From positions 1-60,941 of the forward strand of contig JAAYEQ010000018.1 in NCBI GenBank assembly GCA_012728655.1: a DNA stretch of 60,941 bases, written 5' to 3'. The notes under the pieces are model-generated. The model was given only the letters and a program-made list of their open reading frames with translations, did not search any database and had not been told where the DNA came from. The position numbers were made by a program, and so were the translations under genes. The DNA is from Syntrophomonadaceae bacterium. GTDB lineage: Bacteria > Bacillota > Syntrophomonadia > Syntrophomonadales > DTU052. Positions 52,200 through 52,494 of the stretch are shown here, one piece after another (position 1 is the first letter of the stretch; each line of letters begins with the position of its first letter).

Positions 52200-52224
52200 C
52201 GCCAGGGAGAAAATCTCCCTGGCG
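52200..52224 (+). terminator. Terminator of the SASP gene
   Basis: CGCCAGGGAGA and TCTCCCTGGCG form a perfect 11-base stem with an AAA loop ten bases after the SASP stop, followed by TTTACTATTACTTTTT. Confidence 0.88.
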
Positions 52225-52278
52225 TTTACTATTACTTTTTGTTATAATTAGGCAGAATCATCAAAGGGAGGTGACCTG

Positions 52279-52494
52279 ATGATATCGAAAAACACCATAA
52301 TCGGTGATGTGTTGAGACAGATTCCGGGAGCCGCGCGTGTGTTTATGGAGCACGGCATCCACTGCGTTGGGTGAGGCGGGGCTCTCTTTGAGACGATTGA
52401 GCAGGGTGCTCAAATGCATGGTGCTGATGTTGACCGCCTGCTGTCCGACCTGCAGAAACTGGAGGAGAAAACGAAATCCGAAGACAAATCGTGA
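52279..52494 (+). CDS. DUF1858 protein, predicted selenoprotein with in-frame TGA (CxxU)
   Basis: This small protein of 71 residues reads through a TGA at codon 32 (52372-52374). Before the TGA it reads MISKNTIIGDVLRQIPG and ARVFMEHGIHCVG. After it, GGALFETIEQGAQMHGADVD continues the DUF1858 domain (PF08984) without interruption. The family consensus is HCVGCxxAxxETIEE, so the TGA falls exactly on the second cysteine of CxxC, giving Cys29-x-x-Sec32. A hairpin resembling a bacterial SECIS lies 22-39 bases after the TGA. GGGAGGTGA precedes the ATG at proper distance. The alternative is a nonsense mutation, but the downstream part is well preserved to a regular stop. The function of DUF1858 is not firmly known; a redox or metal role is suggested by the CxxC. 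Confidence 0.8.
52375..52413 (+). promoter_or_regulatory. Putative bacterial SECIS element
   Basis: TTGAGCAGGGTGCTCAA (52397-52413) forms a six-base stem TTGAGC/GCTCAA with loop AGGGT (seven pairs if the loop is GGG). The loop begins 28 bases after the TGA, within the 16-37 base window described for bacterial SECIS hairpins, and has G residues near its start. The stem lies inside the coding sequence, as required in bacteria. Confidence 0.65.

Follow-up and report, generated by a model that had tools for sequence, protein, structure and literature searches.

A predicted DUF1858 selenoprotein gene with a conserved SECIS-type hairpin in a Syntrophomonadaceae bacterium

Positions 52279–52494 of the window, by which we mean the whole stretch of DNA that was analysed (60,941 nucleotides; Syntrophomonadaceae bacterium, assembly GCA_012728655.1, contig JAAYEQ010000018.1, positions 1–60,941, forward strand), almost certainly constitute a selenoprotein gene with selenocysteine (Sec) at residue 32, judging from comparative sequence evidence. 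A sequence-only reading of this DNA had predicted such a gene, and the prediction is supported by homologues, by the Sec machinery of the genome, by hairpin covariation and by orthologues with TGA. The product would be a 71-residue selenoprotein consisting of the small helical DUF1858 domain alone, with Cys29-x-x-Sec32 in the loop that precedes helix 3. SelB with Sec-tRNA(UCA) would be positioned at UGA codon 32 by a hairpin just downstream (52397–52413) and Sec, we infer, would be inserted in place of termination. The features concerned are as follows.

52279–52494, + strand: predicted DUF1858 selenoprotein gene of 71 codons, ending in a TGA stop (direct reading, translation and profile matches)
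52372–52374, + strand: in-frame TGA, proposed Sec codon 32, at the second position of CxxC (same-codon TGA in relatives)
52363–52365, + strand: TGC codon of the partner cysteine, Cys29 (direct reading; invariant in alignment A8)
52397–52413, + strand: SECIS-type hairpin TTGAGCA-GGG-TGCTCAA, apical GGG at 52404–52406 (core conservation, covariation and Cys control)
52265–52274, + strand: Shine-Dalgarno-like sequence AGGGAGGTGA (direct reading; most orthologues have a similar purine-rich sequence before the start)
52240–52248, + strand: extended −10-like promoter element TGTTATAAT (direct reading, consensus only; absent from the output of the two-hexamer scan)
52200–52224, + strand: terminator-like hairpin 3' of the upstream SASP gene

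An interrupted DUF1858 frame and its relatives

With TGA read as U, the frame translates to MISKNTIIGDVLRQIPGAARVFMEHGIHCVGUGGALFETIEQGAQMHGADVDRLLSDLQKLEEKTKSEDKS (71 residues), followed by a stop. Its single internal stop, TGA 52372–52374, falls at the second cysteine of the HCVGC motif, exactly where the sequence-only reading had placed it, and the motif as read is CVGU (residues 29–32). When C was substituted for U, the translation scored 79.2 bits against the TIGR03980 profile (cut-off 44.95; 57 of 58 positions covered) and 64.4 bits against PF08984 (cut-off 32.2); with the stop retained, the family profile search of the genome still gave 68.6 bits, above the cut-off. Because both profiles exceed their cut-offs over the whole domain length, the domain is continuous across the TGA. 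The earlier claims of DUF1858 sequence in frame on both sides, of a regular stop after the domain (here the terminal TGA of the 71-codon frame), of a strong ribosome binding site (the Shine-Dalgarno-like element above) and of a gene missed by standard callers all held; the frame is missing from the standard listing of open reading frames. The stop codons of orthologous genes (TAA, TAG or TGA) fall in the same region.

Upstream of the gene lie genes for SASP, whose match stands exactly at the Pfam cut-off, Fur and FeoB. The terminator-like hairpin at 52200–52224 closes the SASP gene, which suggests that the selenoprotein gene is transcribed by itself. The downstream neighbours, on the other strand, we take from profile search and sequence recognition to be genes for MgtC and an IMP-dehydrogenase-like protein (guaB). 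Outside the bacterium's own family (window, L130, L131) the order guaB-mgtC-[gene]-SASP-fur-feoB is not preserved: Ger(x)C-type, DegV-type and radical SAM genes surround the gene in family f3 (L132, L063), and unrelated genes do so at L134 and L141. The neighbourhood was therefore rejected as a functional clue, the order being lost beyond the own family. An association with hcp, suggested by the name of TIGR03980, was likewise set aside: hcp lies on contig C76 and is not adjacent to the DUF1858 gene.

A family search of 61 genomes, comprising the own genome and 60 relatives, found an internal stop in 33 DUF1858 matches, exactly one in each and always TGA, never TAA or TAG. The TGA stands at the second Cys position in 29 of these matches, at the first in three and elsewhere in one (G018). 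This last match (L086:3605–3772) keeps its CLLC motif intact, the TGA lying in helix 1 (ELUPNT); since the codon is not at a Cys position, a mutation or an assembly error is more likely there than Sec. Own-group orthologues with the same codon as TGA are found in G001–G004, G006, G008 and G012, as well as at L134, L135 and L141, and among public contigs the closest relatives bear the labels Syntrophothermus sp. and Syntrophomonadaceae. When the own-group profile was run against 398 genomes of the phylum, TGA-type genes appeared near the top in the further families f37, f63, f26, f40, f137, f56, f14 and f47. Translation of 13 TGA-flagged genes from this search gave 12 with U at the motif, the remaining one (G228) being a Cys protein whose TGA is simply its normal stop at the end. 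The DUF1858 selenoprotein stretch at L134, whose contig carries the label Candidatus Sumerlaeota, is the same as that of G085 (L218), a genome of the window's phylum; the Sumerlaeota bin may contain a contig assigned to it in error.

TGA is normally a stop, and the gene's own end is also TGA, as would be expected if the frame were a pseudogene or encoded a truncated 31-residue peptide, with the TGA a true stop and the remainder decaying. The comparisons make this very improbable. Dozens of relatives have TGA at the same codon, as the search for such orthologues, proposed in the sequence-only reading, established. Differences from genus relatives in the downstream half are mostly at third positions (alignment A2), with about 12 synonymous and 4–5 conservative replacement codons relative to L130 (hand count, A2). 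Alignment with Cys-containing DUF1858 proteins shows that these homologues run through the TGA site (A8); Cys29 is invariant, and past the site both Sec and Cys forms conserve GA, ET, EQGA and HG. Decay is excluded because the downstream changes are mostly synonymous and these four elements are conserved. A decayed downstream part in relatives, which the earlier reading had named as evidence against itself, was looked for, and the substitution pattern points instead to purifying selection on the downstream half. An error of sequencing or assembly in one base of a Cys codon, conceivable in a draft genome of 79 contigs, has a smaller probability still, given that independent assemblies of other species carry the same-codon TGA together with the hairpin.

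The SECIS-type hairpin and the Sec machinery

The search for a SECIS element downstream of the TGA led to a SECIS-type hairpin, 52397–52413, that is both conserved and covarying. Its stem begins 22 nt after the TGA, matching the earlier estimate, and its apical GGG lies 29 nt after the TGA. In the published bSECIS layout, an apical loop of 3–9 nt with G in the first two loop positions tops a stem of 4–16 bp, at a UGA-to-loop distance of 16–37 nt (PMC13188914). The hairpin agrees with this layout, having a GGG loop closed by A-U, a 7 bp stem and a distance of 29 nt from the UGA. The bare 17-nt hairpin, at −6.7 kcal/mol, is just short of the published minimum free energy limit of −7.5 kcal/mol or lower (PMC13188914); in L134, L135 and L141 the value is −8.0 to −8.4. 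The 60-nt region after the TGA (−13.7 kcal/mol) folds otherwise than the hairpin, and single-sequence folding of these 60 nt gave, for most sequences, results no better than shuffles. An Rfam search of the region returned chance-level matches only.

Single-sequence folding being uninformative, the stem was assessed by covariation and against a Cys control. In 28 distinct Sec sequences, the stem cells pair in 98.0% of cases, and the covariation score is 0.227 versus 0.122 in shuffles, none of 500 shuffles reaching the observed value. Sliding the partner strand lowers pairing to 23–42%. Compensatory changes are found at two pairs: at one, U-A is replaced by C-G in 12 sequences and by A-U in a single sequence; at the other, A-U gives way to G-C in two. 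In the same columns of 24 Cys homologues, 47.6% of cells pair, with no excess over shuffles. A 13-nt core, GAGCAGGGTGCTC, which begins 27 nt from the TGA's first base, is identical in 11 own-group sequences, third codon positions included; a related subgroup carries GAGCAGGCTGCTC or GAGCAGGCTGCCC. In one fetch of public contigs the core was present at 15 of 15 TGA loci and at none of 65 Cys loci that also encode EQGA, loci that are not independent trials because the sequences are related. In the whole genome, the pattern TGA-N18..33-GAGCAGGNTGCTC occurs once, at the DUF1858 gene, and the reversed control not at all.

The genome (2.31 Mb in 79 contigs, 96% complete), in which the gene lies on contig C34, contains all four components that the sequence-only reading had proposed to look for, and all on contig C12: selA (573.6 bits), selB (382.6), selD (387.9) and tRNA-Sec (72.7), each above its cut-off. 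ARAGORN reads the anticodon of the tRNA as tca (UCA), and selD has one in-frame TGA of its own. The presence of selA is uninformative as a discriminator, since the class has an above-cut-off match in 55 of its 63 genomes; a point against the Sec reading is that no selA match was found in G022 and G056 (92–94% complete), both of which have a TGA-form DUF1858.

This evidence bears on a genome-wide reassignment of TGA, to Trp, Gly or Cys, say, in place of SECIS-directed Sec. The existence of Cys homologues means that the codon could be read as Cys, but TGA together with the motif occurs in the genome solely in the frame of the DUF1858 gene, this gene and its genus relatives have TGA as their terminal stop, in contrast to the TAA or TAG of sister genes, the full Sec machinery is present and the hairpin is retained only in TGA forms. 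We regard the probability of reassignment as negligible, and Sec at residue 32 as the reading that best accounts for the TGA.

Variants of the Sec position

A DUF1858 selenoprotein (pfam08984, CxxU; representative WP_012065717.1) is listed in two published tables (PMC9312934, 2022; PMC13188914, 2026), which come from the only papers that a full-text literature search linked to both this domain and selenium. The sequence-only reading had been uncertain on this point; the domain does appear in published lists, as CxxU. Because DUF1858 CxxU stands in both tables, the gene belongs to an already listed selenoprotein family, in which the window protein is placed by two features, the same domain and the same Sec position. 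The UxxC, partner-less and CU forms of DUF1858 are absent from these tables, which hold CxxU only (PMC9312934, PMC13188914).

In the UxxC form, TGA occupies the position of the first cysteine (MGULGC), as found at L055:3998–4189 (G031), L056:3998–4189 (G037) and L057:3998–4198 (G020). These proteins are 80–88% identical to one another and 73% identical to Cys sisters. All three genomes have selA, and no convincing shared SECIS hairpin was found for the UxxC form in them. A MOSC-domain gene follows the UxxC gene after 30-odd bases in two genomes of one genus (L055:4223–4672 and L057:4223–4675), and is not adjacent in L056; the two genes are a possible functional pair.

Two genomes (G055, G056; loci L083, L085) have TGA at the second motif position without a Cys three residues earlier (RFGU, YTGU). 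In G021 (L084), a Cys directly precedes the TGA (SCU, the CU form), an arrangement that recalls the CC of RIC proteins. The hairpin motif family is present in G055, G056 and G021. Two further departures were observed. G002 and G003, of the window's own genus, have an extra DUF1858 selenoprotein subgroup with VRCFGUG (L081, L082) that the window's genome lacks, and the group II DUF1858 selenoproteins of G023 and G058 (L072, L073) have CLDU, not CLGU, departing from the conserved Gly before Sec.

One genome, G205, holds both a Sec DUF1858 (L240) and a closely similar Cys DUF1858 (L246). Of the 13 bases of the SECIS core, 12 survive in the Cys paralogue, where the stem is broken (GAGCAGGGTGCTA); by its sequence, this copy looks like a recent Sec-to-Cys change. 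We consider it likely that in DUF1858 Sec has settled at either CxxC position (CxxU, UxxC), without a partner Cys, or beside it (CU), and that these forms, with the G205 remnant, amount to a compact natural experiment in which Sec and Cys have been exchanged at each end of the motif.

Fold, likely role and meaning

The AlphaFold model (window and locus sequences) is confident, with a pLDDT of 93.7, and consists of four helices, helix 3 being preceded by the loop that carries the motif. The closest matches are two NMR structures of Cys-form DUF1858 proteins, PDB 2K53 (52.7 bits, TMq 0.76) and 2K5E (41.5 bits, TMq 0.81), which share the fold, the domain length and the CxxC site. Cys-form proteins (2K53, 2K5E, TIGR03980) differ in having Cys at the second position, and their genes, unlike the window gene, are without the SECIS hairpin. 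The N-terminal domain of YtfE, ranked after these two structures, has a similar fold (TMq up to 0.71); sequence likeness to the N-terminal ScdA_N domain of RIC proteins is weak (28.0 bits, below the 32.5 cut-off), and the sequence match to ScdA is 21 bits. Scores against the RIC equivalog profiles are 23–32 bits versus cut-offs of 205–259, which places the protein outside RIC. RIC proteins (YtfE/ScdA) have an adjacent CC where the window protein has CxxU, as well as a fused di-iron hemerythrin-like C-terminal domain that is lacking in the window protein, which ends at residue 71.

The cysteines in the same region of ScdA are reported to be redox active (PMC12412097), and in YtfE a channel connects the N-terminal domain to the di-iron site (PMC9268430). 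The own genome has one other DUF1858 protein only (L096:4001–4888, contig C64), a Cys form of about 300 residues in which the domain is fused to a sirohaem nitrite/sulfite reductase-like protein. Considering the CxxU motif, the fold match to DUF1858 and the YtfE N-terminal domain, the redox-active cysteines of ScdA and the reductase fusion on C64, we lean towards a role in which the Cys29/Sec32 pair would cycle between selenol/thiol and selenenylsulfide, the protein serving a larger enzyme as a small electron carrier or a redox switch. Partners of the nitrogen-oxide or sulfite reductase type, or of the Fe-S repair type, are plausible by analogy with DUF1858-like domains fused to such proteins elsewhere; any single named partner would be an improbable choice. 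A selenoprotein whose Cys/Sec pair is chiefly metal-binding or metal-trafficking, and not a redox couple, would suit the adjacency to Fur and FeoAB in the window's own family and the ties of RIC relatives to iron-centre repair (PMC9268430). We consider this unlikely, as the iron-gene neighbourhood is lost outside that family and CxxU/UxxC selenoproteins are mostly thiol-type redox proteins (PMC1794560).

The analysis corrects a gene missed by standard callers and adds comparative support, in the form of SECIS covariation, the Sec/Cys contrast and distribution, for a family that has a single representative in the published tables (PMC9312934, PMC13188914). The SECIS core (GAGCAGGNTGCTC about 27 nt from the TGA) is specific enough to help find more members of the family. 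As the CxxU family is already listed, the Sec-position variants form the more interesting remainder, and the reactive Sec form would be a good handle for trapping the partner of DUF1858.
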